Assembly (NCBI GenBank): GCA_964017185.1
Contig: OZ024878.1
Coordinates: forward strand, 836,501-900,500
Origin: Rugalucina vietnamica
Taxonomy: Eukaryota > Mollusca > Bivalvia > Lucinida > Lucinidae
Direction of reading: 5' to 3'
Length of the DNA: 64,000 nt
Under the pieces are notes generated by a model, which saw only the letters and a program-made list of their open reading frames with translations, was not told where the DNA came from and searched no databases. Shown one piece after another: positions 12,411 through 44,100 of this stretch. The position numbers and the translations under genes were made by a program. Position 1 is the first letter of the stretch, and each line of letters begins with the position of its first letter.

Positions 12411-12838
12411 CCCAGCAGGAGAGTGTAGTTCAAGGTTTTGTTTGTTTTGAGGTTTCACATCGCAGACATTTTTTCAGTAATGGTTATATGTAGTCATTAC
12501 TGCTTCCAGGGTATTAACCAATGGAGCGGAGGCCTAAATTATTTATATGTGTATGTGCGGTTCCAGTTTCCGTACCTTTTTTCACCCTACCCTAAACATT
12601 AAAATGGTCTTTGGGGAGAAAAACAACTAAAAATAGCCACATTTTCTGATTTTGAGGCAATTTTCTGTGTTAGATGTTTTGACTAAATTAAATAATATTC
12701 TCTACCTATCTACTCTAATTTTTGGGGTACATGAAACAGGAACCACATGTATATTTCATTCAAGCCTAAAGTGGTTTGAACACAAAATCTCTTGAACCTG
12801 ACCATGCCACACTATGCCTGTGTTCTGCGTGTCCCTAC

Positions 12839-12955
12839 CTGCAGCTGCCTTGCGTTGATCTGCCAGTTTAAATATGTCCTCTAATTGTTTTGTTTGTTCT
12901 GGAGTTATCTGACTAGCTACTGCTGTATACCACGCTGGGTCTGTGTTTTGTAAAT
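12839..12955 (-). CDS. IPO7: IPO7 exon 25 (last placed)
   Basis: Acceptor ATTTACAG and donor GCAG|GTAGGG. Encodes [20 protein letters not shown] then [13 protein letters not shown], matching NRNPVWYQALTHGL and LADQRRAA. A terminal exon with the last ~30 residues is expected below 12839 but was not recognised. Confidence 0.9.
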
Positions 12956-15900
12956 CTGTAAATATACAAGATGGTGATTCTGCTTTAGTTTTATGTTTTT
13001 GAGTTGTTGCTCATCAGGAAAACATGTCTGTTAAATATATACCCCTTTAAACCCCACTTTTATATAGCAAAACTGAGGTATGCAGGGGTATACCTATTTT
13101 TCTTATTTTTGCTCAGAACATAGATTGTGAGTACACGTTAGAACCGCCTCGATGTGGCGGTTCTAACGAGTACCCACAATCTATGCTTTGAGAAAAAATA
13201 AGAAAAATATCAAACATTTTCTATGCAAAATTTTCAGTTTTTACAAGTTTGGAAAAATCTAAACATTACATGGGCATGTTTTCGTAATGTTAATTTTCAT
13301 GTGAATAGGTCAGGTCATGCCAGGATGGTCATTAACTTCACCATAGCATTCCTTCTTCAAAGAACTTCCCAACACAGTTTACTTGTATTCAATGCCGATT
13401 TATCAACTTTTATGTGACAATTCGTTCTTTTTAAAACCAGGTGTATGTTCAGTAAACAATTATTTTCAGTCTTTTTAAATACAAAACAGACATGACCAAG
13501 CTATTTTTTCTGCCTATATAAACATTTTTTTTAATCAAATTAATTTGATAGAAAAATATGACAAAACATTCTAATCCAATCAAATATCAAAACAGCTTAC
13601 TTGAAAATATATGTTTAAATATTATGTATTCATCTATCGGAGAGTTTTCATCGTCTAGTGGAGTCTGATAACTTTCTAGCGCAGTCTCTTCCGCGTCATC
13701 ATCATCAGTATCGCTGTCGCTATCACTGCCTGTGTGATTAGCCTGAAAAGTTAGAATATGGAAAAAAATGTTTTTGTATGCTGTTTGAACCTTATCTACA
13801 GTTTCATATTTTTATTTAAGTTATGGTAACTGAGTGGCTGCTTATGGGATAATAGCTGCTCACTTGGCTTACGATATGGTACCTAATTGTCAATTTAGTT
13901 TTTCCCACCTCGGTTTTTTGAAGCGAGAATTTCTCTGATTGCACCTCTTCCTGATAATTGCCTACTTGTACCTTTTTATTACATAATGGTAAAACAACCT
14001 GTCAATTGATTTTTGATGATAAAACTCCCAGGCAACAATTTTACAATAAAATTTCGAAAAGCTATCTCTTCCTGGGTACTTAACCAGTTAAAGCATCTTA
14101 TCCACACAGGTTTCATACCCCAGATCTGGCCCATAAAATTAAGAAAACATGCATTTAATACAAGGCAATTTGAGCCGCATCGCGAGAAAACTGGTCTTCG
14201 GGGTTTCCGACCAGGTCTGACACAAACCGAGCTGTACAAGCACAGCAGATGGCTAGAAGCTTTAAATTTGGATTTAAGAAGAAGAGAAATTGTATTATCC
14301 GAGTAGTGAAAACAAAGGCGCTGATCAGCTTCGCAGTTACTGCGAAGCTTATCTGCTCCTTTGTTTCCTTAAAGGCGAAAATCTCATTTTCTCATGACGC
14401 AGCTCATATGGGAGGTATACTTACCGATTTTTCTAATTTTTCTAGATATTCCTGTCCCGCTTCATCAATCTCATCTTCATCACTGGCTAATGCATCTAGA
14501 ACAGGAAAAAAGTTTTGCTGTAAGTTGTTGTTTTGAGGTTTAATGTCTCACCAACAGCTTAGATCATATTGAGAAATAATGATGATCCAACTAAAATTTA
14601 AGTTTAGATGCAGAAAACACGGACATGTTAGAATTGGAGACAACTTTCACGTTGAGTTTTATTCTCTCTTGCACACCTGACAAGAAAATATCAGAATATC
14701 CAAGGTTTTTGTAAGGGGTTGAAATTCTTATCTACCCCTGGTTGTCTGATCCTGCGTGCATGTTCCTCTCAACATTGGTTGCAAAGGATGTCACAGAACT
14801 TCATCGTTATACGTTACATTATCTGGCTTTAAACAAATTTGGACTTTGAATTGTGTCAGACCTGAGGAGAAAACCTGACAAGTTTTCCAAAATCAAGACT
14901 ATGTGAGCTGCAATGCAAAAAACCCTGGGTTTTTGCCAATGTGAAAACAAAGACGCAGATCAGCCGTGCAGTAACTGCACAGCTGATCAGCACCTTTGTT
15001 TTCGCTTCACGGATAGTACAGTCCCCCTTCTTCTTAAATCTGAATTTTCAAGCTTCTAGCCTGCTTCTGAAGACATACAGGCCAGTTTGTGTCAGACCTG
15101 GTCGGAAACGCTGAAAACCGGTTTTCACACATAGCGGCTCATATATTTCGAGTTACAACTGTTATACAACATACAACAACAAATTACCTACCTCCAACAC
15201 CATCTTCATCATCATCATCGTCGTCATCATCATCACTATCACTGTTCTCAGCCTCGGCACGAGCTGAAACACCAGAGAATTTTTTTAATTTATTTTATAT
15301 TGGAAGCTTGCCATACAAAATCAAGAGCCAAGGTCATATTAGGAAAATCAAGTTTTGTTTGTTTGTTTGAATTGATGCTTTATGTCCCAGTCTACAGCAA
15401 TGGTCATGTCGGAACGTTAACGTTGCCTCCATTTTATGGGACTTTTACCCAACATTAGGATGTCATGACACTCAAAATGCACTTCTTAAACATAACCACC
15501 CAACTAAGCCACTAAGTCTTATATGTATGGATGGTTTGACTAAACCTCTTTTCCTGGGCAGGCTCAGACATGAGCGGTTAACCAGTAATCAGATGGTCGG
15601 TCAGTAGATTAGAAGCTTTGCCTGGAGGCACAAGCAGCCCATCCGTTCTTCTAGGCGGCAGGCCCCAATGGGCGAGGGCCCATATTCCCACCTGACCACC
15701 CTTGAAAATCAAGTTAACCTTACACATTGGTTTTGGTTAAATGTTGACTGAATGAAAGTAAGAAGGAATAATTGAATGATGGACATGCTGAAAACAAGTT
15801 ACCCAATATTGATCTTGGGGTTTCAATAAGAAAAGCTGCTTAGAAGTTACCCCATCTTACAGCGATAATTCTGGCTCCAAAATACCTTGGTAGAAAATCT

Positions 15901-18900
15901 CTCGCCAGGCCAAACCTAGCGAGAAATTATGAATTTTCTACGGGAAAACTGGCAAAATGGTTTGTGAAAATAACTGTTTTGTATGAGATTTTTCCTCCCA
16001 TTTAGCCAATTTCAATGAGATTTTTGGCCAAAAAATAACAGAATCTCTCACAATCTCCCCAGAAAATAATCCCTGCATCTTTTCATATCCAGTAAGAACA
16101 CAGACATACAGGCTTACGTAATCATCAATCAAACCTTCCAAGACTGGCTCATTTACCACAGCTCTACAATGCACCCAAAAACAATCCACTTACATTCATA
16201 AGCTCGTTTCAATCCCTGGAAGAGTATTAGTAGTGATGGAAGAAGTTGTGTGCCAATATCTGACACTTCCTGGGGTCGGACATCAGGGCCCATACCCAAC
16301 AAATAACACAGGCCCAGGGCTGCTACCTTGCGGTCATGTAACCTGTAAAAACAGTTCAATGGTGAGAATATTTGTAATAATATGATACAATCCCTTAAGA
16401 ACAGTGGATATAAAATAAATCTGTGACAGTGTGTCAATATCTGATACTTCTTGGGGTCGTACGTCGGGGCCCATACCTAACAAATAACACAGGCCCAGGG
16501 CAGCTACCTTCCGGTCATGCAACCTGTAAAATATTTGGAAAGTTTACCAATGTTTGATATAAACCAATCTGTAAAAGTTGTGTGCCAATAGCAGGCACTG
16601 TTTGGGGTCGTACGTTGGGGCCCATACCCAGCAGATAACAGGCCCAGCACTGCTACCTTCAGATCATGTAACCTGTTAAGATTATGGAAAGTTTGAGAAA
16701 ATTCAAACTGAAATATTTCTCGTAAATTCTTTTAACAAAAGAATTATAACCATTTTTATTTTTATAACCATTTTTTTTTTATAAATGAGCAAAGCATGAG
16801 GTTTGTGGTTTTAAGTCCCAGTACATGATTTTTAGTCATGTTGAGTTAGAGCTACTGTCTTCTAGGTGTTAACCAGTTCAATGGGGAGTTTATGTGTCTT
16901 GATGAAGGACACTACATGTAGGCAGTAGGCCTTGAACCCAGGACCTCTCACTACAGTTCTGTACTCTAACACTTGCCGCCAAAAGGCTCATGCTGATCAC
17001 ACAGTCTCTAAGAGAAATCAGATTTGCATCTTTTACTGACTACAATGCTTGAGATTCTTACAACATCTATTTCCAGCAATGGTCTGGTAACAGTGCGACA
17101 ATTCAGGTACCTACCCTAGGAAGCAGTCCACGTCATGAACCCACTGTTTCAGAAACTGTTGTAACAAAGTTCCCTGTACATTTGCTATTTCTAGAGTTCT
17201 CATTGTCTCAAACAACAGTGGGGTATTATAACACAGAGCGGCAATCACAACTTGTAAACACATCGTCCGTAATTCCGAGGTTTGCACTTCACGAGTGAGT
17301 CTTTGTAAGGCTAGTTCTATGAAAGGTCGAACAATCTGGAAGGAATGAAATAGAACTGCAATATTATAATAATTAACTAAAACATAGCATAGTCACACTT
17401 TGTTTCCTTCTAAAATCAACTGAGTATCCTGTCATTACTTCTATAAATCCATTTTTTTTAAATTCAGTTTTACGCCCCTTTTAAGATTATATCAAGTCAT
17501 ATGAGAAGGGTCAATCAGTAGATGGGGCGAAAACGGGGTAACCCCACAAGCGGAATTTGGCTTGTCTCACATGACACCAGACACAGCGGTGAGATGATCG
17601 AGTGATTAAGAAACAGCGCTCATAACCGCTCGGCCACGGGGGCCGCCTTTTAGGTCTTAAACACGATTGTTATTTAGATCTATTTCAGTGAGGTTGCTGT
17701 ATTCTATCCATTGTCCATGTTAACAGTTTTGTGGGGAAATCAAGAGTATTAATTTTTTCACTTCATCATCGTCAATTTAAATGTTTTAGTGTGGTTAAAG
17801 TTAAACATTATGATTCAGTCGTGTCTGGACGAGGCACACTTCCGGCATCTTTACCGCTGGGGAACAAATGTGTCTTGCTCAAGGACAAAACACGGGTGCC
17901 GCCAGTGGGGATCAACCCAGGACTTCTTGATTCAGAGTCAGATGCTCTACCCTTACTTCACCACCCTCCTCAGTTGTCAATTTAACAGTTGTAAAACTAC
18001 CATAAATGAGCCCCCTCGTGAGAAAACCGGATTTTTGCCTATGCAAAAACAAAGCAGCAGATCAGCTTCGCAGTAACTGCGAAGCTGATCCTTCACAGTA
18101 ACTGCGAAGCTGATCAGCGCCTTTGTTTTCGCTATACGGATATATATAGTACAATATCTCTTCTCCTTCAATCCAAAATTTCTATATAAGTTTCTAGCCA
18201 CCTTCTGTGACTGTACAGCCTGGTTTGTGACGGACCTGGTCGGAAACCCCGAAGACCGTTTTTCTCGCGTTGCGGCTCAATTGTCTTTGTAAGCATGATG
18301 TTCTAGTACTGACCTGATCCACTTGTCCAGGACACTGTAACAAGATGACCTCTAACAATTTAGCAGCATGACATTCCGCGTCCTCACCCACTTCCGCAGA
18401 TAACACCTACAATAGTGGAAATTTCTAAATCTATCCGGGTTCCTCCCAAGTTTCGCAATTTTTATGTTTTTTTTTTTGTCTTTTTTATCAGACCAACATG
18501 CTAAATGCTTAGAATGTGACTCACGTTATTGAGGTCACAAAAATTATTTTACAAAACCCCTTTACTAAAATAATTTTGCCTTATTTGCCAGTGACTTTAG
18601 GTTAATACTTCCAGAAACTACCTTTCAAAACTCAGTAGTGTAAGTTTGGAAGATTTTGCATTTGCCAATTTTATTTTCTCCCAAACTTTTCACAAATTTA
18701 TTCAGAATTCCTCAGTGAGACTATTTGTTAAGTCTTTATAGCTTATAGTAGACCTGTATCAGTACAACTTTGAATTCACAAAGCAACGCTGCAATATAAG
18801 GGAAAAGTAAAGTTCTCACAAATACAAATATTTCCCAAATTAATGACCATACTTACAGACTTGCACATATTATAGACGGCCTCTAGGTTTTTAGGATTGG

Positions 18901-21900
18901 AGAGGAAGGTTGGAGTATACTTACAGACTTGCACATATTATAGACGGCCTCTAGGTTTTTAGGATTGGACAGGAAGGGTGGAGTATACTTACAGACTTGC
19001 ACATATTATAGACGGCCTCTAGGTTTTTAGGATTGGACAGGAAGGGTGGAGTATACTTACAGACTTGCACATATTATAGACGGCCTCTAGGTTTTTAGGA
19101 TTGGACAGGAAGGTTGGAGTATACTTACAGACTTGTACATATTATAGACGGCCTCTAGGTTTTTAGGATTGGAGAGGAAGGTTGGAGTATACTTACAGAC
19201 TTGCACATATTATAGACAGCCTCCAGGTTTTTAGGATTGGACAGGAAGGGTGGAGTATACTTACAGACTTGCACATATTATAGACGGCCTCTAGGTTTTT
19301 AGGATTGGACAGGAAGGGTGGAGTATACTTACAGACTTGCACATATTATAGACGGCCTCTAGGTTTTTAGGATTGGAGAGGAAGGGTGGAGTATACTTAC
19401 AGACTTGCACATATTATAGACGGCCTCTAGGTTTTTAGGATTGGAGAGGAAGGTTGGAGTATACTTACAGACTTGCACATACTATAGACAGCCTCTAGGT
19501 TTTTAGGATTAGAGAGGAAGGTTGGAGTATACTTACAGACTTGTACATATTATAGACGGCCTCTAGGTTTTTAGGATTGGAGAGGAAGGTTGGAGTATAC
19601 TTACAGACTTGCACATATTATAGACGGCCTCTAGGTTTTTAGGATTGGAGAGGAAGGTTGGAGTATACTTACAGACTTGTACATATTATAGACGGCCTCT
19701 AGGTTTTTAGGATTGGAGAGGAAGGGTGGAGTATACTTACAGACTTGCACATATTATAGACGGCCTCTAGGTTTTTAGGATTGGAGAGGAAGGTTGGAGT
19801 ATACTTACAGACTTGCACATATTATAGACGGCCTCTAGGTTTTTAGGATTGGAGAGGAAGGTTGGAGTATACTTACAGACTTGTACATATTATAGACGGC
19901 CTCTAGGTTTTTAGGATTGGAGAGGAAGGTTGGAGTATACTTACAGACTTGCACATATTATAGACGGCCTCTAGGTTTTTAGGATTGGAGAGGAAGGTTG
20001 GAGTATACTTACAGACTTGTACATATTATAGACGGCCTCTAGGTTTTTAGGATTGGAGAGGAAGGTTGGAGTATACTTACAGACTTGCACATATTATAGA
20101 TGGCCTCTAGGTTTTTAGGATTGGACAGGAAGGGTGGAGTATACTTACAGACTTGCACATATTATAGACAGCCTCTAGGTTTTTAGGATTGGACAGGAAG
20201 GGTGGAGTATACTTACAGACTTGCACATATTATAGACGGCCTCTAGGTTTCTAGGATTGGACAGGAAGGGTGGAGTATACTTACAGACTTGCACATATTA
20301 TAGACGGCCTCTAGGTTTCTAGGATTGGACAGGAAGGGTGGAGTATACTTACAGACTTGCACATATTATAGACGGCCTCTAGGTTTCTAGGATTGGACAG
20401 GAAGGGTGGAGTATACTTACAGACTTGCACATATTATAGACGGCCTCTAGGTTTTTAGGATTGGACAGGAAGGGTGGAGTATACTTACAGACTTGCACAT
20501 ATTATAGACGGCCTCTAGGTTTCTAGGATTGGACAGGAAGGTTGGAGTATACTTACAGACTTGCACATATTATAGACAGCCTCTAGGTTTTTAGGATTGG
20601 ACAGGAAGGGTGGAGTATACTTACAGACTTGCACATACTATAGACGGCCTCTAGGTTTTTAGGATTGGAGAGGAAGGTTGGAGTATACTTACAGACTTGT
20701 ACATATTATAGACGGCCTCTAGGTTTCTAGGATTGGACAGGAAGGTTGGAGTATACTTACAGACTTGCACATATTATAGACAGCCTCTAGGTTTTTAGGA
20801 TTGGACAGGAAGGGTGGAGTATACTTACAGACTTGCACATATTATAGACGGCCTCTAGGTTTTTAGGATTGGAGAGGAAGGTTGGAGTATACTTACAGAC
20901 TTGTACATATTATAGATAGCCTCTAGGTTTTTAGGATTGGACAGGAAGGTTGGAGTATACTTACAGACTTGTACATATTATAGATAGCCTCTAGGTTTTT
21001 AGGATTGGAGAGGAAGGTTGGAGTATACTTACAGACTTGTACATATTATAGACAGCCTCTAGGTTTTTAGGATTGGACAGGAAGGTTGGAGTATACTTAC
21101 AGACTTGAACATATTATAGACAGCCTCCAGGTTTTTAGGATTGAACAGGAAGGTTGGAGTATACTTACAGACTTGCACATATTATAGACAGCCTCTAGGT
21201 TTTTAGGATTAGAGAGGAAGGTTGGAGTATACTTACAGACTTGCACATATTATAGACGGCCTCTAGGTTTTTAGGATTGGACAGGAAGGTTGGAGTATAC
21301 TTACAGACTTGCACATATTATAGGTAGCCTCTAGGTTTTTAGGATTGGAGAGGAAGGGTGGAGTATACTTACAGACTTGCACATATTATAGATAGCCTCT
21401 AGGTTTTTAGGATTGGAGAGGAAGGGTGGAGTATACTTACAGACTTGCACATATTATAGACGGCCTCTAGGTTTCTAGGATTGGACAGGAAGGTTGGAGT
21501 ATACTTACAGACTTGCACATATTATAGATAGCCTCTAGGTTTTTAGGATTGGAGAGGAAGGGTGGAGTATACTTACAGACTTGCACATATTATAGACGGC
21601 CTCTAGGTTTCTAGGATTGGACAGGAAGGTTGGAGTATACTTACAGACTTGCACATATTATAGACGGCCTCTAGGTTTTTAGGATTGGAGAGGAAGGTTG
21701 GAGTATACTTACAGACTTGTACATATTATAGACGGCCTCTAGGTTTCTAGGATTGGACAGGAAGGGTGGAGTATACTTACAGACTTGCACATATCATAGA
21801 TAGCCTCTAGGTTTTTAGGATTGGAGAGGAAGGTTGGAGTATACTTACAGATTTGCACATATTATAGACGGCCTCTAGGTTTTTAGGATTGGACAGGAAG

Positions 21901-24900
21901 GGTGGAGTATACTTACAGACTTGCACATATTATAGACGGCCTCTAGGTTTTTAGGATTGGACAGGAAGGGTGGAGTATACTTACAGACTTGCACATATTA
22001 TAGACGGCCTCTAGGTTTTTAGGATTGGAGAGGAAGGTTGGAGTATACTTACAGACTTGTACATATTATAGACAGCCTCCAGGTTTTTAGGATTGAACAG
22101 GAAGGTTGGAGTATACTTACAGACTTGTACATATTATAGACGGCCTCTAGGTTTTTAGGATTGGACAGGAAGGTTGGAGTATACTTACAGACTTGCACAT
22201 ATTATAGACAGCCTCCAGATTTTTAGGATTAGAGAGGAAGGTTGGAGTATACTTACAGACTTGCACATATTATAGACAGCCTCCAGGTTTTTAGGATTGG
22301 ACAGGAAGGTTGGAGTATACTTACAGACTTGCACATATTATAGACAGCCTCTAGGTTTTTAGGATTAGAGAGGAAGGTTGGAGTATACTTACAGACTTGC
22401 ACATATTATAGACGGCCTCTAGGTTTTTAGGATTGGACAGGAAGGTTGGAGTATACTTACAGACTTGCACATATTATAGACAGCCTCCAGGTTTTTAGGA
22501 TTGGACAGGAAGGTTGGAGTATACTTACAGACTTGCACATATTATAGACAGCCTCTAGGTTTTTAGGATTAGAGAGGAAGGTTGGAGTATACTTACAGAC
22601 TTGCACATATTATAGGTAGCCTCTAGGTTTTTAGGATTGGAGAGGAAGGGTGGAGTATACTTACAGACTTGCACATATTATAGACGGCCTCTAGGTTTTT
22701 AGGATTGGAGAGGAAGGGTGGAGTATACACAGACTTGCACATATTATAGACGGCCTCTAGGTTTTTAGGATTGGAGAGGAAGGTTGGAGTATACTTACAG
22801 ACTTGCACATATTATAGACGGCCTCTAGGTTTTTAGGATTGGACAGGAAGGTTGGAGTATACTTACAGACTTGCACATATTATAGACAGCCTCCAGGTTT
22901 TTAGGATTGGACAGGAAGGTTGGAGTATACTTACAGACTTGCACATATTATAGACAGCCTCTAGGTTTTTAGGATTAGAGAGGAAGGTTGGAGTATACTT
23001 ACAGACTTGCACATATTATAGGTAGCCTCTAGGTTTTTAGGATTGGAGAGGAAGGTTGGAGTATACTTACAGACTTGCACATATTATAGACGGCCTCTAG
23101 GTTTTTAGGATTGGACAGGAAGGTTGGAGTATACTTACAGACTTGCACATATTATAGGTAGCCTCTAGGTTTTTAGGATTGGAGAGGAAGGGTGGAGTAT
23201 ACTTACAGACTTGCACATATTATAGATAGCCTCTAGGTTTTTAGGATTGGACAGGAAGGGTGGAGTATACTTACAGACTTGCACATATTATAGATAGCCT
23301 CTAGGTTTTTAGGATTGGACAGGAAGGGTGGAGTATACTTACAGACTTGCACATATTATAGACGGCCTCTAGGTTTTTAGGATTGGAGAGGAAGGGTGGA
23401 GTATACTTACAGACTTGCACATATTATAGACCGCCTCTAGGTTTCTAGGATTGGACAGGAAGGTTGGAGTATACTTACAGACTTGCACATATTATAGATG
23501 GCCTCTAGGTTTTTAGGATTGGACAGGAAGGTTGGAGTATACTTACAGACTTGCACATATTATAGATAGCCTCTAGGTTTTTAGGATTGGACAGGAAGGG
23601 TGGAGTATACTTACAGACTTGCACATATTATAGACGGCCTCTAGGTTTTTAGGATTGGACAGGAAGGTTGGAGTATACTTACAGACTTGTACATATTATA
23701 GGTAGCCTCTAGGTTTTTAGGATTGGACAGGAAGGGTGGAGTATACTTACAGACTTGCACATATTATAGACGGCCTCTAGGTTTTTAGGATTGGACAGGA
23801 AGGTTGGAGTATACTTACAGACTTGTACATATTATAGACGGCCTTCAGGTTTTTAGGATTGGAGAGGAAGGTTGGAGTATACTTACAGACTTGCACATAT
23901 TATAGACAGCCTCCAGGTTTTTAGGATTGGAGAGGAAGGTTGGAGTATACTTACAGACTTGCACATATTATAGACGGCCTCTAGGTTTTTAGGATTGGAG
24001 AGGAAGGTTGGAGTATACTTACAGACTTGTACATATTATAGGTAGCCTCTAGGTTTTTAGGATTGGACAGGAAGGGTGGAGTATACTTACAGACTTGCAC
24101 ATATTATAGACGGCCTCTAGGTTTTTAGGATTGGACAGGAAGGTTGGAGTATACTTACAGACTTGCACATATTATAGACGGCCTCTAGGTTTTTAGGATT
24201 GGACAGGAAGGGTGGAGTATACTTACAGACTTGCACATTTTATAGACGGCCTTCAGGTTTTTAGGATTGGACAGGAAGGTTAAAGTATACTTACAGACTT
24301 GCACATACTATAGACGGCCTCTAGGTTTTTAGGATTGGACAGGAAGGTTGGAGTATACTTACAGACTTGCACATTTTATAGACGGCCTTCAGGTTTTTAG
24401 GATTGGAAAGGTTGGGGTATACTTACAGACTTGCACATATTATAGACGGCCTCTAGGTTTTTAGGATTGGAGAGGAAGGTTGGAGTATACTTACAGACTT
24501 GCACATATTATAGACGGCCTCTAGGTTTTTAGGATTGGAGAGGAAGGTTGGAGTATACTTACAGACTTGCACATACTATAGACGGCCTCTAGGTTTTTAG
24601 GATTGGACAGGAAGGGTGGAGTATACTTACAGACTTGCACATTTTATAGACGGCCTTCAGGTTTTTAGGATTGGACAGGAAGGTTGGAGTATACTTACAG
24701 ACTTGCACATACTATAGACGGCCTCTAGGTTTTTAGGATTGGAGAGGAAGGTTGGGGTATACTTACAGACTTGCACATATTATAGACGGCCTCTAGGTTT
24801 TTAGGGTTGGAGAGGAAGGTTGGAGTATACTTACAGACTTGCACATATTATAGACGGCCTCTAGGTTTTTAGGATTGGAGAGGAAGGTTGGAGTATACTT

Positions 24901-27900
24901 ACAGACTTGCACATACTATAGACGGCCTCTAGGTTTTTAGGATTGGACAGGAAGGGTGGAGTATACTTACAGACTTGCACATTTTTATAGACGGCCTTCA
25001 GGTTTTTAGGATTGGACAGGAAGGTTGGAGTATACTACAGACTTGCACATACTATAGACGGCCTCTAGGTTTTTAGGATTGGACAGGAAGGTTGGAGTAT
25101 ACTTACAGACTTGCACATTTTATAGACGGCCTTCAGGTTTTTAGGATTGGAAAGGTTGGGGTATACTTACAGACTTGCACATATTATAGACGGCCTCTAG
25201 GTTTTTAGGATTGGAGAGGAAGGTTGGAGTATACTTACAGACTTGCACATATTATAGACGGCCTCTAGGTTTTTAGGATTGGAGAGGAAGGGTGGAGTAT
25301 ACTTACAGACTTGCACATATTATAGACAGCCTCCAGGTTTTTAGGATTGGAGAGGAAGGTTGGAGTATACTTACAGATTTGCACATATTATAGACGGCCT
25401 CCAGGTTTTTAGGATTGGACAGGAAGGTTGGAGTATACTTACAGATTTGCACATATTATAGACGGCCTCCAGGTTTTTAGGATTGGACAGGAAGGTTGGA
25501 GTATCGACTGTGATATAGTTGTGGATAGCAGGCATCATATCTGGAAAACAAGTAGACTTTTATGTAATAAGTTATAAATTTAAGACCACACACATTAAGG
25601 TTAAAACAGGTACATGTATGTCATTCTATTGTTTGTCTAAGGTAATTTAAAAGGAACTATTATTAGAGTGCTAAAGGTAGGTTTCGAAATATTTGTCTAT
25701 TTGCTCTAAAAGATGGTCTTTATATTTTCATATTACTGATCCTTCCAAGGCGATACTTCTGTTGTGGTTCTAATTGTTTTGTGTTTGGGAATCAAGTTTT
25801 TGTGCTGTTTGAGCCTTGTGTACGTTTTCATATTTTTAGTTCAGTTCGGGTAACTGAGTGGCCGCCTATAGCTGCTCACTCAGCTTTCGATATGTTTTCT
25901 TGGTTTACATACAGAAGTGTCATTTTATTTTTTTCCCACCCCTCGGTTAATGGAGTGGGAATATCTTTCTCATTTTAGCAATTCAAGACCATTGCCTACT
26001 TGTACCTTTTTATAAAATTCTACTGATTTGTGTCTCTGTCTGACAAGGCTTTTTTCTACTTTAAACTATAAATGTAAAAGCAGCTCTTACCTGTGAAATA
26101 GTCTATGCCATCTTTCTGGAACATTTCATACAGCATACCAAACACCTGCCACATATGTTGGGAAATCTGAGTACTAGTTAGACTGTAGATTAGGGATAAC
26201 ACCTCTTCGTAAAAGTCTGAAAGAAATTCACATTCAAATTTTAAGTAATTTTCATAGCTAATGAAGTTTAAGCTATGAAACCAAAATCTACAACACTGCT
26301 TTGTTTATCAATGTTTCTGTTATATCTACAGGAACTTACAGCAAGAATACAACCAAACAGGTATGTGACTTAAACTACTTGTGTGTGAAATAATAAACTA
26401 CTTGTATGTGAAATAAACTAATTAAGAAATAATAAACTACTTGTATGTGTAATAAACTACTTGTGTGTGAAATAATAAACTACTTGTGTGTGAAATAATA
26501 AACTACTTGTATGTGAAATAAACTACTTGTATGGGAAATAAACTACTTGTATGTGAAAAAAACTACTTGTATGTGAAAAAATAAACTACTTGTATGTGAA
26601 ATAAACTACTTTTTTCTGAAAAATTAGTCACATGAATGTGAAATAAATTAAGTCTGTGAAATAAACCATGTCTGTGAAATAAAACTCATATAGGTATGTG
26701 AAATAAACTACTTGCAAGTGAAATTATCTACATATTTGTGAAATAAAGAATACATGTGTGAAATAGATGACATGTATGTCAGTTTTGTTTGTTTGCTTGT
26801 TTGTATTGATGCTTAACATCCCAGTCAACAGCTAATGGTCATTTCGGGACACTGCCTCCATTTTATGGGACTCTGACCCAAAATTAAGGATATCATGACA
26901 TCCAAAAAGTGCTTCAAATATAACCACCCAACCAAAAAGACTTATATATGTATGGATAGTTTGACATTTTGCTTCATGTATACAAAATAAGCTAATGGAA
27001 AAGGATATTATGGGCAATTTTCATGGATGCCAATACACTTCGATTAATGTAAATGTATATTGAAAGCCAGTCAGTTTTACCCAAGAGCTGTTCTTCTGTA
27101 GCTACTGTACAGTCAGTGGACATAATTATTCGCCACCTTTGGAAAACTCCATAGACTTACATGTGTTTTCATGTTTGCAAGAAAAAATATTCTGCTTCTC
27201 CTGGCCAACATTTTTTTATGTTTTTGGTGTCATTTGAAAGGTAAAGGAATAAAGCAATAAACAAGATATTTTCCATTTAATTCCATGCATGTGTTTTAAA
27301 GCTGCAATTTTTTAAAAACTTATGAATTTTTTTCGGGCACTTTTTGGGCAACGTCACCATTGACGTCAATGGGAAAGTGGCTTTTTCAAAATTTTCTAAA
27401 AATTTAAACTGCTGTATATACAAAATGCACTGTTGAAACTTCACCAAATCACCTTTATTTATTGCTTTACTCATTTAACTTTCAAATGACATGAAAATCG
27501 TGAATATATGTTGACCAGGAGAAGCAGAATATTTTTTCTTGCAAACATGAAAATACATGCAAGTCTATGGAGTTTTCCAAAGGTGGCGAATAATTATGTC
27601 CACTGACTGTACACAGTACGTTTGAACAAAATGCAAGTTCTGTATACAAGTATTTGTTGTGAGGAATGCTAGAGAAACTGCTGAACAATCCACAGTTTCT
27701 ATTTTAGCCTCATCACATTTGGTCTTCCTGGCCTTTACTACACACACAATGATATCAGCATTATGCATGTGAAATCTCCAGGGTCAATAATTTGAGCCGC
27801 TTTGTGGGAAAACCAACAATGTGGTTTCCAAACAGGTCTGACACAAACCGGCCTGTACAGCTACAGAAGCAGGCTAGAGGCTTGAAATTTTGGAGTTAAG

Positions 27901-29109: not shown

Positions 29110-32100
29110 AAAAACATACACAAAATTGACCAAAATCAAATTATTAAATACGATAGAGAATGAATAGGGTACATAAGAAATAATAATAAAAATGCGATCA
29201 TTAGTGGGACTCGAACCGCTATCGGTAAAATGAAAAGTAATGTAATCTTAATCTGCGTGCTCTAACATTTGAGCTATGCAGTCCTGAACAATTTCTTGGG
29301 ATAGCAACTTTATATACCGATACATTTACCTTGCTAATAATCGCGAAGAGTCACGATGATGAACGAGCAATCACGAAGCGGTCCGAAGATATATTTAGAA
29401 TTGCAACGAACTATAATTATATACTAATAGAGTTCACCCAACACCAGGTGAATATTTTTGGACTATACGTATGATGAATTTTTACGCTAGAAATCGGCGT
29501 AACAAAGACTTCCGAAACCGAAAGTTGATTTGTTTACTGTGTTTGTTGAATTTATTCAGCTGTTTTTATGGCTCAAAAATTAAGAAAACACGGAAAAAAA
29601 TTGGAAAAAACGTCAGTGGGCTGCCATATTGATTTCACTATATTGCTCAGCATGCTAAAGGTTAAACAAGTATTTTTATGCAATCATTAATCTTATTGCG
29701 AAAAGTATGTACAATGGTTGACAAGTTAGAGCACCTGAAGCCACTAACCTATAATATTTTGTTGTAAGATGATTCCTATCACATTTAACACAATCCCTTC
29801 TAACTGGATCATAATCTGAAATATAGAGGAATATATCAGTTATAAATAGGAAATTAACTTTAAATAAATGAGATATTAGATGTAATCAATTAACAAGTCA
29901 CTCGACCAGTAATTTTATATTACTGACCATTCCAAGGCAACATTTCTGTTTTTGTTGTGGTTTGTTTTGTTTCATGCTTTTTTGTGTTGATTTGTTTGTT
30001 TTGTGATTTAATCTCCCAGTTAAGTTATTCAGCCATGTCGGGACGGACTTCCTGGGTATTAACCAGTACCCTGGGGAGTTAATAAGTCTTGCACAAAGAC
30101 ACAGCACAGTGCGCCAGTAGGGATAGAACCCAGGACCTCTCACTTCACAGTATGATGCTCTTCCACTACTCACTCTAGATAACAATTTTTGCACTTTAGA
30201 AGAACATAATGTATCTAGGATGCTGGATCAATCTCAGAGTAACATACATACTGAGCAGCCTCTCACTTGCACCCTGTCATTTTAACATAAAAAATATTCA
30301 AACAAACCTCTCTATGTTCTTCCATCACAGTTAATATAGTTTCCATGGTATTCAATATACCCAGGGCTGTTATAGCTTTTTCTTCTGAGCCCTCTGAGTC
30401 GGTATCTAACACTTGAGAGAATGTTGTAGCCTATAAAATATGAATAATCACAGTTAATATAGTTTCCATGGTATTCAATATACCCAAGGCTGTTATAGCT
30501 TTTTCCTCTGAGCCCTCTGAGTCGGTATCTAACACTTGAGAAAATGTTGTCGCCTGTAAAATTAAATGTATCAAAATGACTTTTGTGCATGTTTTCTTTG
30601 TAATGCTTTCTTTACAGCTGAAAATGAACTCGTATCCATAAATCGTAAAAGTTAAGTCCTGTAACTACCTTTATGAACTAAATCAGATCAACAAATTTGC
30701 AATTTCTGAATAATGCTTCAAGAGTTGAGATGGGGATTAACAGGCAAATTGAGACATTTTTTTAAACATGTCGAGACAGAGCCAACACTTCTTTTTTTCT
30801 ATTAACACCATCTGTGGAGAGTAAAGTTCCATACTCAAGGTCCAACCTATCTCTGTACCATTGGGTTTTAAACCTAGCTCTCAATTCAGGGTCAGATGCT
30901 TGAATTCAGGGGCTTGAACCCCTCTACCACACAAAGTAATCCACTTACCAGACCCGACATGACTTCTACAGCAATAGGTATCACCTCCTCTACGTAGGTA
31001 CAGACCAGTCGCTGCATAGTGCCAGTCAGGTCGTCATTTTCTGTATCTCGTATAACATTCAGTAACTCCAACATGATCGTCTTCACGTGGGGCTTCATGA
31101 AATTCTTGGCTGAAAAACATTTGATTTGGATTTACTAGTTTATCATAACTTAGTGCACATTTTGTCATTATTAACAGACCAGTTGCTGCATAGTGCTGGT
31201 CAGTTCATCATTTTCCGTGCCTTGTATGACATTCAGTAACTCCAGTATTATTGTCTTAGCTGAAAAAGATTCATTTTGATTTTTTTAGTTTACAATAACA
31301 TAATGCTCATTCTTTCACCATCAACACATGAGTCACCCAATGGGAAAACCAACAATCTGCATAGGCGAAAACAAAGGCAGAGATCAGCTTCGCAGTAACC
31401 GCAAAGCTGATCAGGACCTTTGTTTTCGCTACTCCGATAGTACAATTCCTCCTCTACTTAAATCCGAAATTTTAAGCTTCTAGCCTGCTTCTGTGACTGT
31501 ACAGCCTGATTTGTGTCGGACCTGTCCAGAAACCACAACGTTGGTTTTCCCATGAGGCGGCTCAAATGAGTCGCTGCATAGTTCAGGGTGGTCATCATTT
31601 TCTGTGTCTAACATTCAGTAACACCAGCATTAGTGTCTTAATGTGGGGTTACATGGCATTCTTTGCTGTTTTAACAAATGTCAAATATTTTTTCACCCAT
31701 GTCGGGACAGAGCCACTGCTTCAGGGACACAGCACAGATTGTGTTGCGTTTCAACCCACAAATCCCAAATCCAGAGTCAGATGCTGCACCACTAGTTAAC
31801 TAAGCAACATCAAGCCTAAACTGACATGGGCCTTATTTAAACTAAGTACCTTTATCTTGCTCTGTTATCAACATCTGTAGTGCTATGGCTGCCTCTACTC
31901 TCACAGGTAACTGTTTGTCGGTACACAGACATGTTTTGGTACACTCCAAGGCTTGATACAGGTGATAAAGTTTGAAAGATACATGTTAATACCTTTATCT
32001 TGTTCAGTAATTAACATCTGTAGAGCTATGGCTGCCTCGACCCTCACTGGTAACTCTTTATCGGTACATAGACATGTTTTGGTACACTCTAAAGCTTGGT

Positions 32101-35100
32101 ACAGGTTGGCTTCCTGTTTGAATTTTAGTTCACTGAAATACCGCAACACCCAGCATGCCTGAAAATAATAGAATTTTGTTATTTAGTGAGGTAGCTGTAT
32201 ACAAATTGTTGAAAACTGAAACATGTTTGTTTAAGGTTGGACATCCCAGTCAACACTTTTTCAGTTAAGTCCGAAAAAGTACGCATGGGTATTAACCAGT
32301 ATTTTCAGGCAGTTGGTGTGTCTTGCTCAGACAAACCACAGCCTCAGTGGGCTCTGTATCCAAATCTTTCAATTCAGTCTGATGTCCTAAGCCATACCAT
32401 TGTGATTCCCTCGAAATTGATATGCAACTTTGTGGGATAACTGTATTCAAAATTGTTATTGTATTTGGTGAAAAGTATTATCAGTTTGCAGACATTAATA
32501 CTGATTTTCACTGCCTTATGAACCATTCAAAATTCTTCAGACTTATTTATATAAGGAGAATATCCTATTATGGCAAAAGGTACTAGTATTACCTTCCCTA
32601 GCTCTGAGGAAGCCATGTTGACTAGTGAACTCTGGGTACTAGTATTACCTACCCTAGCCCTGAAGAAGCCATGTTGACTAGTGAACTCTGGGTACTAGTA
32701 TTACCTATCCTAGCTCTGAGGAAGCCATGTTGACTAGTGAACTCTGGGTACTAGTATTACCTACCTTAGCTCTGAGGAAGCCATGTTGACTAGTGAACTC
32801 TGGATACTAGTATTACCTATCCTAGCCCTGAAGAAGCCATGTTGACTAGTGAACTCTGGGTACTAGTATTACCTACCCTAGCTCTGAAGAAGCCATGTTG
32901 ACTAGTGAACTCTGGGTACTAGTATTACCTACCCTAGCTCTGAGGAAGCCATGTTGACTAGTGAACTCTGGGTACTAGTATTACCTATCCTAGCTCTGAA
33001 GAAGCCATGTTGACTAGTGAACTCTGGGTACTAGTATTACCTATCCTAGCTCTGAAGAAGCCATGTTGACTAGTGAACTCTGGGTACTAGTATTACCTAC
33101 CCTAGCTCTGAGGAAGCCATGTTGACTAGTGAACTCTGGGTACTAGTATTACCTATCCTAGCTCTGAGGAAGCCATGTTGACTAGTGAACTCTGGGTACT
33201 AGTATTACCTACCTTAGCTCTGAGGAAGCCATGTTGACTAGTGAACTCTGGATACTAGTATTACCTACCCTAGCTCTGAGGAAGCCATGTTGACTAGTGA
33301 ACTCTGGGTACTAGTATTACCTACCCTAGCTCTTAGGAAGCCATGTTGACTAGTGAACTCTGGGTAGACATGGGTAGTTAACATCATCTCAGCCTGATCT
33401 TTGTAGATCTTCCTCTGTAAGCAAAGATATGAATGTCATATGTTTTCCACTCACTCTTAAATCCATATGAAGCAAATTTAACTTGATGTTGACATGTTTC
33501 CAGTTTTAAAAAAATTCAGCATATTGTGTATTCTGAAAGAGACAATAACCTAAGAAAACATAAACCAAAATATTTATATGGCAAAAATGACTCCCAGTGA
33601 ATGTAGACATTTCTTCTCTTCTTCACCCAAAAATTACAAACATTACTGCAAAATATACTATTATCATAATCACTCTAATATGCGCATTTAAGTAGTTCGA
33701 AATGAACTGGCCTTAATTACGGTTCAATAGGAATTGGACATGCTGTCGAAAGAGCTGTTGTGCCCAGTAAGCAATCACTGTAAAACGACAAATATCTTTA
33801 CCTTCAGCAAGACTTCAGCTACTGCCCCTATCATGTGTAAAGCTCCGTCTTTCTGTCGTGGATCTATATCTCGCTGAGTCAGAATCTGCATACAGAAGCC
33901 CACTGATTTCTGTAGAACCTCTTTCCGTTTAGAGGCGGCGGAGTAAAACATTGTCTGAGCAGCTATCACAGGTGAGAGGAAGTCTTCAAATACATCTGAA
34001 AGAAGAAGGTGAACAAATAAGTGTACAATGATGATTTCAAAGTATGGTAATTGTGGTGTCAGGTTAGCCCACTGATTTCTGCAGAACAGAGGCGGCAAAT
34101 AACTTTGTCTGAGCCCCTATCACAGGTGATAGGAGCCCCTATCACAGGTGATAGGATGTCTTCAAATACATCTGAAAAAGGGAAGTGAACAAACGTGTAC
34201 ATTGATGGTTTAAAAATATGGTGACTGGTGATGTATGTCCCACTCAACAGCTAAGCTCACTGACTTCTGTAGAACCTCTTTCCGTTTCGAGGCGACAGAA
34301 CAGAACCTTGTATGAGCGGCTATCACAGATGACAAAAAATCTTCAAATACATATGTTTTGTCACAGGAAAACATGAATGACTGGCATTATGACAAAGCCC
34401 ATTTCTTCTGTAATGTTTACTATATTACTCAAGTTTGCATCCCTTTCAAGATTATTTCAGCTCATAAGGGACGCAAATGGAACCTACACAAGACACTGTG
34501 GTAATTTGATCCAATGTGCAGTAATGCAACCAAAGATCAGCAGCCATAACTGCTCGGCCATGGGAGCCGCCATGATGTTTACAATTAGTAAAGTGCCTTA
34601 CAAGTCATAAAGCAACAATTTATGAACACATAAGTCTTACCATATTTGATTCTGATATATTCCTGTGGGTCAGAGTTCCAAAGTTCCTCATCAGCATCAC
34701 TGTGACACATGAGAGGGAAGATCACCTCCTGGATGATAGGCTGGATGTGGGGCTTCATAAACTTCCAGCTAAATGCATGGCTCACTCTGACGACAAAAAT
34801 CAAAGATGCAAATCTGTTCTGAATAAGGTACATGTTCATGTTTAAAGTCCACTTTTTTCCAAATTGTGTGTGTATACAAACTACAGTCTTTCTAGCTCTA
34901 GGAATACCTGGCGTTTACAAACAATACTTATTAATGAACAACTTTAACCATGTTAACACAGATCTAAGACAAAATTCAGACTTTCATCAACAAATCATAG
35001 ACAAGGATATGAACTTTTTTTTTGGAAACATAGGCAAATCAAGAATCACAACCACTCAGTTGGCTGTCATGGGCACAAATGCTATGAGAATTGAAGTTAT

Positions 35101-38100
35101 TATTAATCATGCTAGAGTGTGAGTACCCCTTACCCTTGGTTGAGATAATTCAAAGCTTGTTGAAGAATTCTGGGAGCAACATACATCTTCTGTCGATACT
35201 GATCAAGAAGACGCAGTAAAACTTGGATTATTCCCCCTGAAATAGTGTTCCATATACCATCAACTTAAAATGCTTATTTAATATATCAACAAAAAAGCCT
35301 TGAACAAGTTTTAGGGAAGTGTTTTACTTATTTCCATACAGGTTAATCCTACAAAATTTGATTTAATAGGCTTATGAAGATGTGTCTTATATCACTTACC
35401 CGAAAAGGCTTTCAAATACCACTCAGCAAATTGATTGTAGTCTTTTGTAACATTACCAGGGCTCCCATATCTGCAATCAAAGTTTTACACAATTTAGCAG
35501 CTTGACATAGTGGACAAATTATACTATCACTGACATTGTTTGAAATAAATACTAAAATAAATGACTACTAAATTTGTTTCACAAAATTACCTTCCAAAAC
35601 TTCTTTCTTTCTTCAGATACTTAGTCGATCAATTTCTGATCATCACTTTGGGACAGTATACATGTATGTACAGCCCATTTCTTTGCCTTCCACCAGGCTA
35701 GCTCATTACAGTTCAGATCAAAATTGCTTCTTCGAGCAGTATGGTTAGGGTTTACACTATCACCAGAGAGCCACATAAACTGGTCAAAAATTCTTTACCT
35801 TTCGAAAGTTCTGGACAGTATATGTACAGCCCATTTCTTTGCCTTCCACCAGGCTAACTCTGGCCTCTCATCTTCATCTATTTGATTGGCTTGCTGAAAA
35901 ATAAATAATAGACCCTTTTGAGATTTTTCAGTATTTATGAACAAATATATTATAAGATGAATAATGCTTTCAAATATGATAATAAAACATTAAAACACTG
36001 CATAGAGAAAAAGCTCAGCCAACTGGGTCCTGTTTCTGGTACCAAATTTTTTCCAAATTGGCTGAAAAAATTACCAATTGACCTAAAACTTTCCCTGATT
36101 GACAAAAAAATCCCAGTTTATACAGTAAACTTTCCCAATCAGATTAAAAATCATGCTCTTTTCACAATTTGAGGAAAGATTTTACAGTTTTTTTCCCCCA
36201 ATTTCATTTGTACCAAACTCCCAAAAGGTGAGAAAAAATCCCAGTTTAGAAGGTAAACTTTCCCAATCAGACTAAAAATCATGCTCTTTTCACAATTTGA
36301 GGAAAATTTTACAGGGTTTTTTTCCCCAATTTCATTTGTACCAAACTCCAAAAGGTGAGAAAAAGTCCTTGTTTGGGAACATACTCTATTATAATAAAAT
36401 TTGACCACATAACGCCAACATCTTGCCTTCAAGAAAAGGTATATATGTTCCTTAAGCTTTCTGTGTTATTCAAGTAAAAGATATAATGTGTAAGCTTTTT
36501 GGTTAATATCCTTACCTCTGGTACTGGCCTATCTACAATCTGTCGTATCAACTCCATCCATTGGGTGAAAATCTCTTTGGTAATTGTATCCAGAGGCAGG
36601 TAGTTCTGTGGAAATTGCAATCAAAAATCTATTACATGTATTTTCAAATGTTGTACTGATGCTTTTTTGTTGCTACATGTAGCTTCTACAAAGTACTTTA
36701 AAGTCACTTTCTACTTTTGTATTGACAACAGTCCTTAACTATTGTATAACATACATGTATTTGTGTGAACCTTATTTGTCATATTACATGTATATGACCT
36801 GAGTGAAACTAGAATTGTCAGAGAATCTGACTATAGCCCCGCTTCTCAGCTTTTTTGCAGGGTGAAAAAACAATGACAGGTAACTATCACAAGCTAGATC
36901 TCGTCAATATTGATGCGCATACAAAATATGGTCTGATTATGTCGATTCGTTCTCAAGATATTGAGCGGAAACGAAATTCTGACCTCAATAAATGGCCATA
37001 ACTCCGTCAAAATTTTGCGAAAAATGACGGGTAACAATCCCAAGCTAGATCTTGTCAATGATGATGTGCATACAAAATTTGGTCGGATTCTGTCAATTCA
37101 TTCTCAAGATATTGAGCGGAAACGAAATTCTGAAGTCAATCAAGGGCCATAACTCCCGTCAAAATTTTGCGAAAAATGATGGGTAACAATCCCAAGCTAG
37201 ATTTTGTCAATGATGACGTGCATACTAAATTTGGTCGGATTCTGTCAATTCGTTCTCAAGATATTGAGCGGAAACGAAATTCTGACGTCAATCAAGGGCC
37301 GTAACTCCGTCAAAATTTTGCGAAAAATGACGGGTAACAATCCCAAGCTAGATCTTGTCAATGATGACGTGCATACAAAATTTGGTCGGATTCTGTCAAT
37401 TCGTTCTCAAGATATTGAGCGGAAACGAAATTCTGACGTCGATCAAGGGCCGTAACTCCGTCAAAATTTTGCAAAAAAAGACGGGTAACAGTCCCAAGCT
37501 AGATCTTGTCAATGATGACGTGCATACAAAATTTGGTCGGATTCTGTCAATTCATTCTCAAGATATTGAGCGGAAATGAAATTCTGACGTCAATTAAGGG
37601 CCGTAACTCTGTCAAAATTTTGCGAACAATGACGGGTAACAATCCCAAGCTAGATCTTGTCAATGTTGATGTGCACACAAAATTTGGTCGGATTCTGTCG
37701 ATTTGTTCTCAAGATATTGAGTGGAAACAAAATTCTGACGTCAATCAAGGGCTGTAACTCCGTCAAAATTTTGCGAAAAATTACCGGTAAAAATACCAAG
37801 CTAGATCTTGTCAATGATGATGTGCATACAAAATTTGGTCTGATTCTGTCAATTCGTTCTCAAGATATTGAGCGGAAACGAAATTCTGACGCCAATCAAG
37901 GGCCGTTACTCCGTCAAAATTTTGCGAAAAATGACCGTTAACAATCCCAAGCTAGATCTTGTCAATGATGACGTGCATACAAAATTTGGTCGGATTCTGT
38001 CAATTCGTTCTCAAGATATTGAGCGGAAACGAAATTCTGACGCCAATTAAGGGCCGTAACTCCGTCAAAATTTTGCAAAAAATGACGGGTAACAATCCCA

Positions 38101-41100: not shown

Positions 41101-44100
41101 AGGTCACCCAGGGTAGGTCATGATGGTACTGCATAAAACTTCAGACCAATATCTACCAACATGCAACCAATATCTACCAACATGCAACGTATCAACTCGA
41201 TCAATCAACATGGTCAAGAGATATAGACTTACAAAAACTTAAACCAAAAACTTAAACACAAAATTTCTAAGTCTGTGACATTGACCTCAAGGTCACCGAG
41301 AGTGGGTCATGATGGTACTGCATAAAACTTCAGACCAATATCTAGCAACATGCAAAGTATCAACTCAATCCATCAATATGGTCAAGAGATATAGACTTAC
41401 AAAAACTTTAACCACACAAGATTTTTAAGTCCGTGACCTTGACCTCAAGGTCACCCAGGGTGGGTCATGATGGTACTGCGTAAAACTTCAGACCAATATC
41501 TAGCAACATGCAAAGTATCAACTTGATCCAACAACATGGTCAAGAGATATAGACTTACAAAAAACTTTAACCGAAAGTGTGACGCGGACGTACACGTAAA
41601 CGTAAATGGGGACGACCGAGGTGACTACAATAGCTCTATGCACTTCGTGCAGGCGAGCTAAAAATCATATCAGTCAGTCAGTTACATGCAAACTATAGTC
41701 GTAAACATGAATGTGGAATAGCCGATTTTGCAAATTTAAACTAGTAAACAATTAAGCAACATGTGACAACTCCCTCATAACCAGAAAGACTCCAGAATGA
41801 GCTGTACTGTTCTCAATTACCGCCCCTGATGCCTCTTTCAAATTCATCACATTTATGATTAAAATGTTTTACCTGATGGGATCCGGAGCATGTATAATAA
41901 CCTCTACAATGTTTCTGATGGCCAGTCTATTTTGTTCATGGACATTGAACGGTACAGGGTCGCTGGGGTTACAAACATTATAGGGTCCGGAGTATGAATA
42001 ATAGCCTCTACAATATTGTTTCTGATGGCCAGTCTATTTTGTTCATGGACATTGAACGGTACAGGGTCACTGGGGTTACAAACATTATAGGGTCCGGAGT
42101 ATGAATAATAGCCTCTACAATATTGTTTCTGATGGCCAGTCTTTCTTGTTCATGGACATTGAACGGTACAGGGTCGCTGGGGTTACAAACATTATAGGGT
42201 CCGGAGTATGAATAATAGCCTCTACAATATTGTTTCTGATGGCCAGGCTATCTTGTTCATGGACATTGAACGGTACAGGGTCGCTGGGGTTACAAACATT
42301 ATAGGGTCTGGAGCATGTATAATAGCCTCTACAATATTGTTTCTGATGGCCAGTCTATTTTGTTCATGGACATTGAACGGTACAGGGTCACTGGGGTTAC
42401 AAACATTATAGGGTCCGGAGCATGAATAATAGCCTCTACAATATTGTTTCTGATGGCCAGTCTATTTTGTTCATGGACATTGAACGGTACAGGGTCGCTG
42501 GGGTTACAAACATTATAGGGTCCGGAGCATGAATAATAGCCTCTACAATATTGTTTCTGATGGCCAGTCTATTTTGTTCATGGACATTGAACGGTACAGG
42601 GTCACTGGGGTTACAAACATTATAGGGTCCGGAGTATGAATAATAGCCTCTACAATATTGTTTCTGATGGCCAGTCTTTCTTGTTCATGGACATTGAACG
42701 GTACAGGGTCGCTGGGGTTACAAACATTATAGGGTCCGGAGTATGAATAATAGCCTCTACAATATTGTTTCTGATGGCCAGGCTATCTTGTTCATGGACA
42801 TTGAACGGTACAGGGTCGCTGGGGTTACAAACATTATAGGGTCTGGAGCATGTATAATAGCCTCTACAATATTGTTTCTGATGGCCAGTCTATTTTGTTC
42901 ATGGACATTGAACGGTACAGGGTCACTGGGGTTACAAACATTATAGGGTCCGGAGCATGAATAATAGCCTCTACAATATTGTTTCTGATGGCCAGTCTAT
43001 TTTGTTCATGGACATTGAACGGTACAGGGTCGCTGGGGTTACAAACATTATAGGGTCCGGAGCATGAATAATAGCCTCTACAATATTGTTTCTGATGGCC
43101 AGTCTATTTTGTTCATGGACATTGAACGGTACAGGGTCGCTGGGGTTACAAACATTATAGGGTCCGGAGCATGAATAATAGCCTCTACAATATTGTTTCT
43201 GATGGCCAGGCTATCTTGTTCATGGACATTGAACGGTACAGGGTCGCTGGGGTTACAAACATTATAGGGTCTGGAGCATGTATAATAGCCTCTACAATAT
43301 TGTTTCTGATGGCCAGTCTTTCTTGTTCATGGATATTGAACTGTACAAGGTCACTGGGGTTACATACCTTATAGGGTCTGGAGCATGTATAATAGCCTCT
43401 ACAATATTGTTTCTGATGGCCAGTCTTTCTTGTTCATGGATATTGAATGGTACAAGGTCACTGGGGTTACATACCTTATAGGGTCTGGAGCATGTATAAT
43501 AGCCTCTACAATATTGTTTCTGATAGCCAGTCTATCTTGTTCATGGATGTTGAACGGTACAGGGTCGCTGGGGTTCTCAACTTCCCGATCCTGCCAGAAC
43601 TGAGAAATCATATTCTTCAGGTACACAACACCTACAATAATAAGATCAAATTTGAGCCTCCTCATAAGAAAACCAACAATGTGGTTTCTGACCAGGTCCG
43701 ACACAAACCAGGCTGTACAGCCACAAAAGATAGCTAGAGCCCTGGAAATTTTGTATTTAGAAAGAACAAGAATTGTACTATCCCTGTAGGGAAAACAAAG
43801 GCGCTGATCAGCTTTGCATTTACTGCGTACTGATCTGTGCCTTTGTTTTTGCATATGCAGATTGTTGATTTTCTCATGACACGGCTCATTTAATTACACA
43901 TAAAAGAGATACATAGTATGAGAATGAAGAGCTGTGAAAAAACAAAGGTTTAGACAAATTTAAACTCAATTTGATAAAACCTCAACAGTATTGCATTCAA
44001 CTGTTCTTTTTTTTTAGCAATCTGCTTTGGTTTTTCAATATGATGCACTGTTTCTTAATATGCAAATCACTGGTGGATTTTAAGGAAGGATCCATCACAT

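Follow-up and report, generated by a model that had tools for sequence, protein, structure and literature searches.

Three described kinds of system come close to the locus reported here. Minisatellites, or variable number tandem repeats (VNTRs), are head-to-tail arrays of short units; minigenes have set identical 5' splice sites (donors) against each other in cis for a single acceptor, and choice among identical donors has been tested with such artificial two-site genes (PMC9225289); and partial exon duplications place, next to an exon, copies of one part of it that include a single splice site. The present array lies in the importin-7 (IPO7) gene of the lucinid bivalve Rugalucina vietnamica, in a window of 64,000 nucleotides (contig OZ024878.1, positions 836,501 to 900,500 of assembly GCA_964017185.1). 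Like a minisatellite, it occupies one locus and consists of units tens of bases long, arranged head to tail, with about 95% similarity and with variants that recur from unit to unit; unlike one, it has an exon end and a 5' splice site in every unit (96 of the 98 sites are intact), and unit 1 forms part of a coding exon. It shares with the minigenes identical donors competing for one acceptor, but it is natural, has 98 sites rather than two, spaces them 68 bp apart in a 7-kb intron, and is here read from sequence alone. As in partial exon duplication, part-exon copies stand beside their parent, but there are 98, and the extra ones have the look of passengers within the intron, not of new exons. 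No long natural donor array is described in the titles and abstract openings of the open-licence PMC papers that were searched.

We consider it likely that the array is an extreme outcome of a recurrent process, tandem duplication spanning splice sites, and is carried along passively, with donor 1 picked by exon definition. A tandem duplication spanning the border of exon 18 and intron 18 would have started it, and unequal exchange, slippage or conversion may have brought it to 98 copies. The donors would be passengers, many of them probably bindable by U1. Recognition of exon 18 would run across the exon and pair its own acceptor with the first donor; the spliceosome would therefore take donor 1, exclusively or nearly so, and the other 97 would be removed with the intron. 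Exon definition, by settling on the first donor, would make the array tolerable, and we infer that it is neutral. Splicing was exclusively at the upstream donor in each of five minigenes built with 365-nt introns and two identical CAG/guaagu donors (PMC9225289), and several U1-occupied 5' sites are reported to alter choice but not efficiency unless the sites are very close (PMC5389562). On this analysis, first-donor use is the likelier outcome. The locus offers a natural test case, with 96 intact and nearly identical donors at 68-nt steps facing one acceptor in a conserved transport-receptor gene, and sister arrays with weakened or lost donors supply built-in comparisons. If donor 1 is used nearly exclusively, exon definition would gain strong in vivo support; otherwise, the array would be an unusual regulator.

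Tandem Repeats Finder (TRF) returned one array (18849-25504, period 68, 98.0 copies, 95% matches), wrap-around alignment also gave 98 units, and the unit used as a genome query had 98 matches, all at one locus of the 1.09-Gb, 47-contig assembly. These results confirmed the ladder of about 98 tandem donors that a sequence-only reading of the stretch had proposed, with its bounds of 18850..25505 one base off. With its period of 68 and 98 copies in this one assembly, the array is a minisatellite (VNTR) in the sense of head-to-tail units of about 10 to 100 bp. On the gene strand, the unit is the final 60 nt of exon 18 followed by GTAAGTAT, as had also been claimed, and the exon does sit 18th in the gene model. 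The donor TCT/GTAAGTAT (the slash marks the exon-intron border) is intact in 96 of 98 units. A 4-nt deletion is common to units 6 and 17, and unit 8 has one inserted base. Unit 1, in the exon, is identical to unit 2; each carries two departures from the consensus, both synonymous when read in the exon frame. The 98 units fall into 45 distinct haplotypes; this diversity and the identity of units 1 and 2 are what turnover between copies would be expected to give. Most units (81/98) have the A of CTAG, and 17/98, units 1 to 3 among them, have G. Mean unit distance stays at 3.0 to 3.7 across lags 1 to 30, with slight dips at, for example, lags 2, 5, and 6. A higher-order repeat structure was rejected: there is no strict period across those lags, despite the identical pairs at lag 5 (12 versus 7 at lag 1).

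The minus strand of the window was modelled as a gene of 23 exons running from 56826 to 13601, with an additional coding stretch near 12760-12960 outside this model. The joined 23-exon protein aligned with Xenopus importin 7 (6n88) over residues 1-891 in a single alignment (1262.7 bits), ungapped at the exon 18/19 junction, and contains an IBN_N domain. Judged by this full-length match, the gene is importin-7. The introns flanking exon 18 are 550 and 7036 nt long.

The modelled reading frame stays open with donor 1 only. The sequence-only reading held that a switch to the second donor adds 68 bases, shifts the frame and reaches TAG within that unit. The addition and the frameshift stand; the stop does not lie there, as units 1 to 3 read CTGG (TGG) where the consensus unit would have the TAG, and is instead a TAG 52 nt into exon 19. 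Donors 3 to 98, the two damaged ones included, lead to TAA 69 nt past donor 1, inside the second GTAAGT. Because every one of the 97 alternative donor positions thus yields a premature stop, fidelity to the first donor matters, as the same reading had argued. Exon 18 would measure 98 nt with donor 1 and 166, 234, and 302 nt with donors 2, 3, and 4. Premature stops are what unproductive (poison) splicing entails, yet they are expected for most out-of-frame additions.

What might single out donor 1? On the intron side, GTAAGTAT pairs in full with the first eight bases of the U1 5' end; on the exon side, TCT matches CAG at 0 of 3 positions, so an earlier description of the donor as near consensus holds for the intron side only. 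The predicted U1 pairing of donor 1 is -7.3 kcal/mol, with 14 of the 22 other modelled donors stronger, and a profile built from the gene's own donors ranks it 6th weakest of 23. Since the sequence of donor 1 equals that of its rivals, position is the main remaining cue: it is the donor nearest the exon 18 acceptor. RNA structure was set aside as the distinguishing mark, as the predicted accessibility of donor 1 (0.014) is above the median of the other intact donors (0.0047) without being set apart (13/95 are higher); a four-unit stretch showed no excess of structure over shuffles (z = 0.28). We also rejected a cryptic 3' splice site in each unit, formed by the CTAG of the 81 units, which scores -3.1 on average versus -1.4 for the weakest real acceptor. 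Only 2 of 385 AGs in the array attain that weakest score, which makes pseudo-exons unlikely.

The ladder had been presented as a feature of one intron. This is true of the exon 18 array, but the gene has others that bear donors, at exons 3 and 12, and a two-copy duplication at exon 13 (Table 1). At exon 3, predicted U1 pairing falls from -8.4 kcal/mol in copies 1-2 to -2.4 in copies 3-15, versus -4.5 for the gene's weakest real donor, and the profile score of copies 3-15 is 3.6 versus 4.1 for the weakest real donor. We dropped the view that these decoys are dead; they are weakened instead, because exon 15 truly uses GTTTGT (GAG/GTTTGT). The exon 12 array has lost the GT of 6 of its 14 modelled donors, and a weak GTAATA four nucleotides downstream persists in 14/14. 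Variable columns number 2/9 in the donor versus 14/98 elsewhere at exon 3 and 3/9 versus 4/47 at exon 12. Pooled over the arrays of exons 18, 12, and 3, they number 5/27 versus 38/204; donor and other columns vary alike, which argues against general donor protection. The weakened or lost donors indicate that such arrays can spread with poor donors.

Table 1. Features of the importin-7 locus, with positions in the window.
Feature	Position	Strand	Remarks
Exon 18 array	18849..25502	-	68-bp unit, 98 copies; the first lies mostly in the exon, 2-98 in the intron; donor intact in 96
Donor 1, putative true 5' splice site TCT/GTAAGTAT	25435..25445	-	among 98, the only one keeping the modelled frame open
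Unit 7	25032..25098	-	1-nt deletion inside donor (wrap-around alignment)
Unit 41	22725..22790	-	2-nt deletion inside donor (wrap-around alignment)
Exon 18	25443..25540	-	98 nt; last 60 nt are the exonic part of array unit 1; gene model and Xenopus importin 7 alignment
Intron 18	25442..18407	-	7036 bp, of which 6594 bp are array
Intron 18, non-repeated tail	18407..18848	-	442 nt; acceptor TTGTAG/GTG; two AATAAA
Exon 19	18314..18406	-	gene model and Xenopus alignment
Exon 3 sister array	41882..43575	-	107-bp unit, 15.9 copies; donors AAG/GTATGT (copies 1-2), AAT/GTTTGT (copies 3-15), CAG/GTAAAA (last)
Exon 12 sister array	32579..33366	-	56-bp unit, 14 copies; modelled donor GT kept in 8/14, lost in five by G-to-A at +1 and in one by T-to-A at +2
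Exon 13 two-copy duplication	31847..32106	-	exon tail and first donor bases
Exon 15 two-copy duplication	30324..30586	-	acceptor and exon head; downstream copy needed for frame

Local partial copies were found for 10 of the 23 modelled exons. In exons 3, 5, 12, 13, and 18, the tail and donor are copied downstream (the exon 13 match reaches intron base +3); in exons 11, 14, 15, and 21, the acceptor and head are copied upstream; and exon 7 has a copy of a 40-bp internal piece. These counts leave out an exon 23 match, which is 31 bp long and lies in a CAT repeat at a distance of 1.5 kb, and an exon 2 match that is intron flank only. The sidedness of the copies was discarded as a pattern, since it follows from tandem geometry and proves nothing. 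At exon 15, the upstream acceptor gives an in-frame stop, so the full protein would need the downstream one.

Similar duplications occur elsewhere in the genome. A sample of 20 stretches (198 kb) covering 75 of 91 myosin-head matches contained 55 duplication clusters, 11 of which touch exons, a count that takes known exons only and leaves unmodelled ones uncounted. Local partial copies accompany 11 of 74 myosin-head exons (74 rather than 75, because one match itself resembles a tail copy): six tail-side downstream (four shown crossing the match end), four head-side upstream (three shown crossing), and one both. IPO7 is richer in copied exons than this sample (Fisher p = 0.007), having been chosen for being striking. 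In a TCP-1 family gene (PF00118), probably CCT3, an exon tail and its donor are repeated with a period of 178 over 7.7 copies (stretch L035, 665-2028); its eight donors, AAG/GTAA.., read by eye, all keep the GT. Furthermore, five 10-kb stretches placed regardless of genes held nine clusters, in three of the five. The importin-7 ladder belongs to a recurrent class of duplications in this genome, and the wider pattern suggests that splice-site duplication is frequent enough here for statistical study.

Several observations weigh against passive carriage with first-donor choice. Substitutions affect 20 of the 68 unit columns, 0 of the 9 in the donor (-3 to +6) versus 20 of the 59 others (one-sided Fisher p = 0.034, the region having been chosen post hoc). 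Of all stretches of the unit free of variation, the longest, at 13 columns, is the one that contains the donor (a run that long has a chance of 0.15), and 9 of the 22 variant alleles in exonic columns are synonymous in the exon frame, above the 23% expected. RNA structure could also contribute to the choice of donor 1, because this donor is more accessible than the median donor; together with exon 3 decoys that are weakened rather than dead, this slightly lowers our confidence in a passive array. In PMC9225289, human events favour the downstream donor overall (about 60%) and the upstream donor at near-equal strength (60%), short introns favour the downstream donor, and weak identical donors bordering larger exons lead to exon skipping. 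For DOK7, PMC5585400 describes an intron-proximal canonical site and a choice that is shifted by SRSF1. When indels are counted, the 26 distinct events divide into 2 in the donor and 24 elsewhere (p = 0.31). We find nothing convincing for donor-specific conservation, and the constancy of the donor is weak evidence of it. The other 13 of the 22 exonic-column alleles are nonsynonymous, which makes it less likely that the intronic units are constrained as protein. The sequence-only reading had left three options standing, namely buffering of U1 binding, regulated unproductive splicing, and neutrality. We lean toward the last, given no convincing donor protection, altered donors in the sister arrays, the 13 nonsynonymous against 9 synonymous alleles of the intronic units, and recurrence elsewhere.

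Regulated unproductive splicing would have some transcripts use donors 2 to 98, gain a premature stop and be degraded, with array length or splicing-factor levels tuning importin-7 output. All 97 alternatives do stop early, several exons before the last modelled exon, and intron 18 has 96 donor-like sites, or 13.6 per kb versus 0 to 6.9 per kb in 21 other modelled introns. Nearly any out-of-frame extension gives premature stops, however; with donor 4 or beyond, the exon would reach 302 nt or more, exceeding every other modelled exon; and there is no sign of selection keeping the donors once indels and sister arrays are counted. We regard this explanation as unlikely. It is hard to credit, in turn, that the array acts as a landing strip on which many bound U1 particles prevent premature polyadenylation along the intron or stabilise recognition of exon 18. 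The full pairing of GTAAGTAT with the U1 end and the two AATAAA motifs in the 442-nt intron tail fit such a role, but, compared with the gene's other donors, those of the array rank as ordinary or weaker, and neither AATAAA nor ATTAAA was found in the array, so that it would protect little beyond itself. Copies 3-15 of the exon 3 array pair poorly with U1, which argues that U1 binding is not required for an array of this sort to grow. A further thought joins duplication to regulation: a genome in which short stretches are often duplicated in tandem (in the sampled regions, mostly as units of 100-200 bp) would repeatedly copy exon ends with their splice sites, some copies growing into ladders, and the importin-7 ladder might then be tunable by length, with surplus U1 binding or leakage to later donors setting the productive mRNA and array-length alleles serving as a rheostat. 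We think this quite improbable.

It could also be that the array exists but the copy number of 98 is a product of assembly. Highly similar tandem units are difficult to assemble, and some blocks repeat, with the excess of identical pairs five units apart over lag 1 described above; yet the 45 haplotypes show no strict higher-order period, and the array is at one locus in an assembly of 47 contigs. An array of 6.6 kb is within the reach of long reads. A wrong copy number is, in our judgement, very improbable. Some splicing- or transcription-linked process might instead target duplication to exon ends. Among clusters in the gene with an offset of up to 500 (four with larger offsets, touching no exon, were set aside), 10 of 15 touch exons, versus 1.87 expected under random placing. 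Detection odds were applied because old exon copies are easier to recognise, one copy being conserved; at threefold and fivefold odds, the whole set retains p = 0.003 and 0.036. In the younger class, defined by an identity of 85% or more and counted without one 40-bp match, 5 of 8 touch exons, but a p of 0.001 weakens to 0.013, 0.048, and 0.17 once odds of 2, 3, and 5 are applied; in the myosin regions only 11 of 55 clusters touch known exons; and IPO7 was examined for its extremeness. Targeting is thus suggestive in importin-7 and unsettled in the myosin sample, and we hold it to be unlikely.

The remaining observations concern duplication at large. A count of GTAAGT triplets at 46- to 76-nt spacing across the genome gave 9912 versus 13244 in the reversed control, so a genome-wide excess was abandoned; the count is uninformative because many of the listed places are simple repeats. 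In importin-7, two diverged upstream copies of exon 14 (window 31174-31668, 68-77% identity), at least one with an acceptor-like end, are probably dead exons, and an array of 151-bp units (36872-38961, 13.8 copies) touches no modelled exon. A second exon of the TCP-1 family gene is present in 2.8 copies of 144 bp (stretch L034, 514-911), and in its units some 45 nt separate a donor from a pyrimidine-rich, acceptor-like stretch. In the 20 myosin stretches, same-strand 14-mer pairs numbered 2802 at 100-200 bp, 34 at 40-100 bp, and 8 at 200-240 bp, with more at 240-500 bp; each 20-bp bin within 100-200 bp was fed by 5 to 9 of the 20 stretches. A unit of 100-200 bp, the size preferred by local duplications, resembles the length of a nucleosome or an Okazaki fragment; the 68- and 56-bp units in importin-7 fall below it. 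Finally, one myosin stretch (L009, 2078-4096) has three myosin-head matches to nearly the same part of the profile (119-153), about 950 bp apart, resembling mutually exclusive exons.

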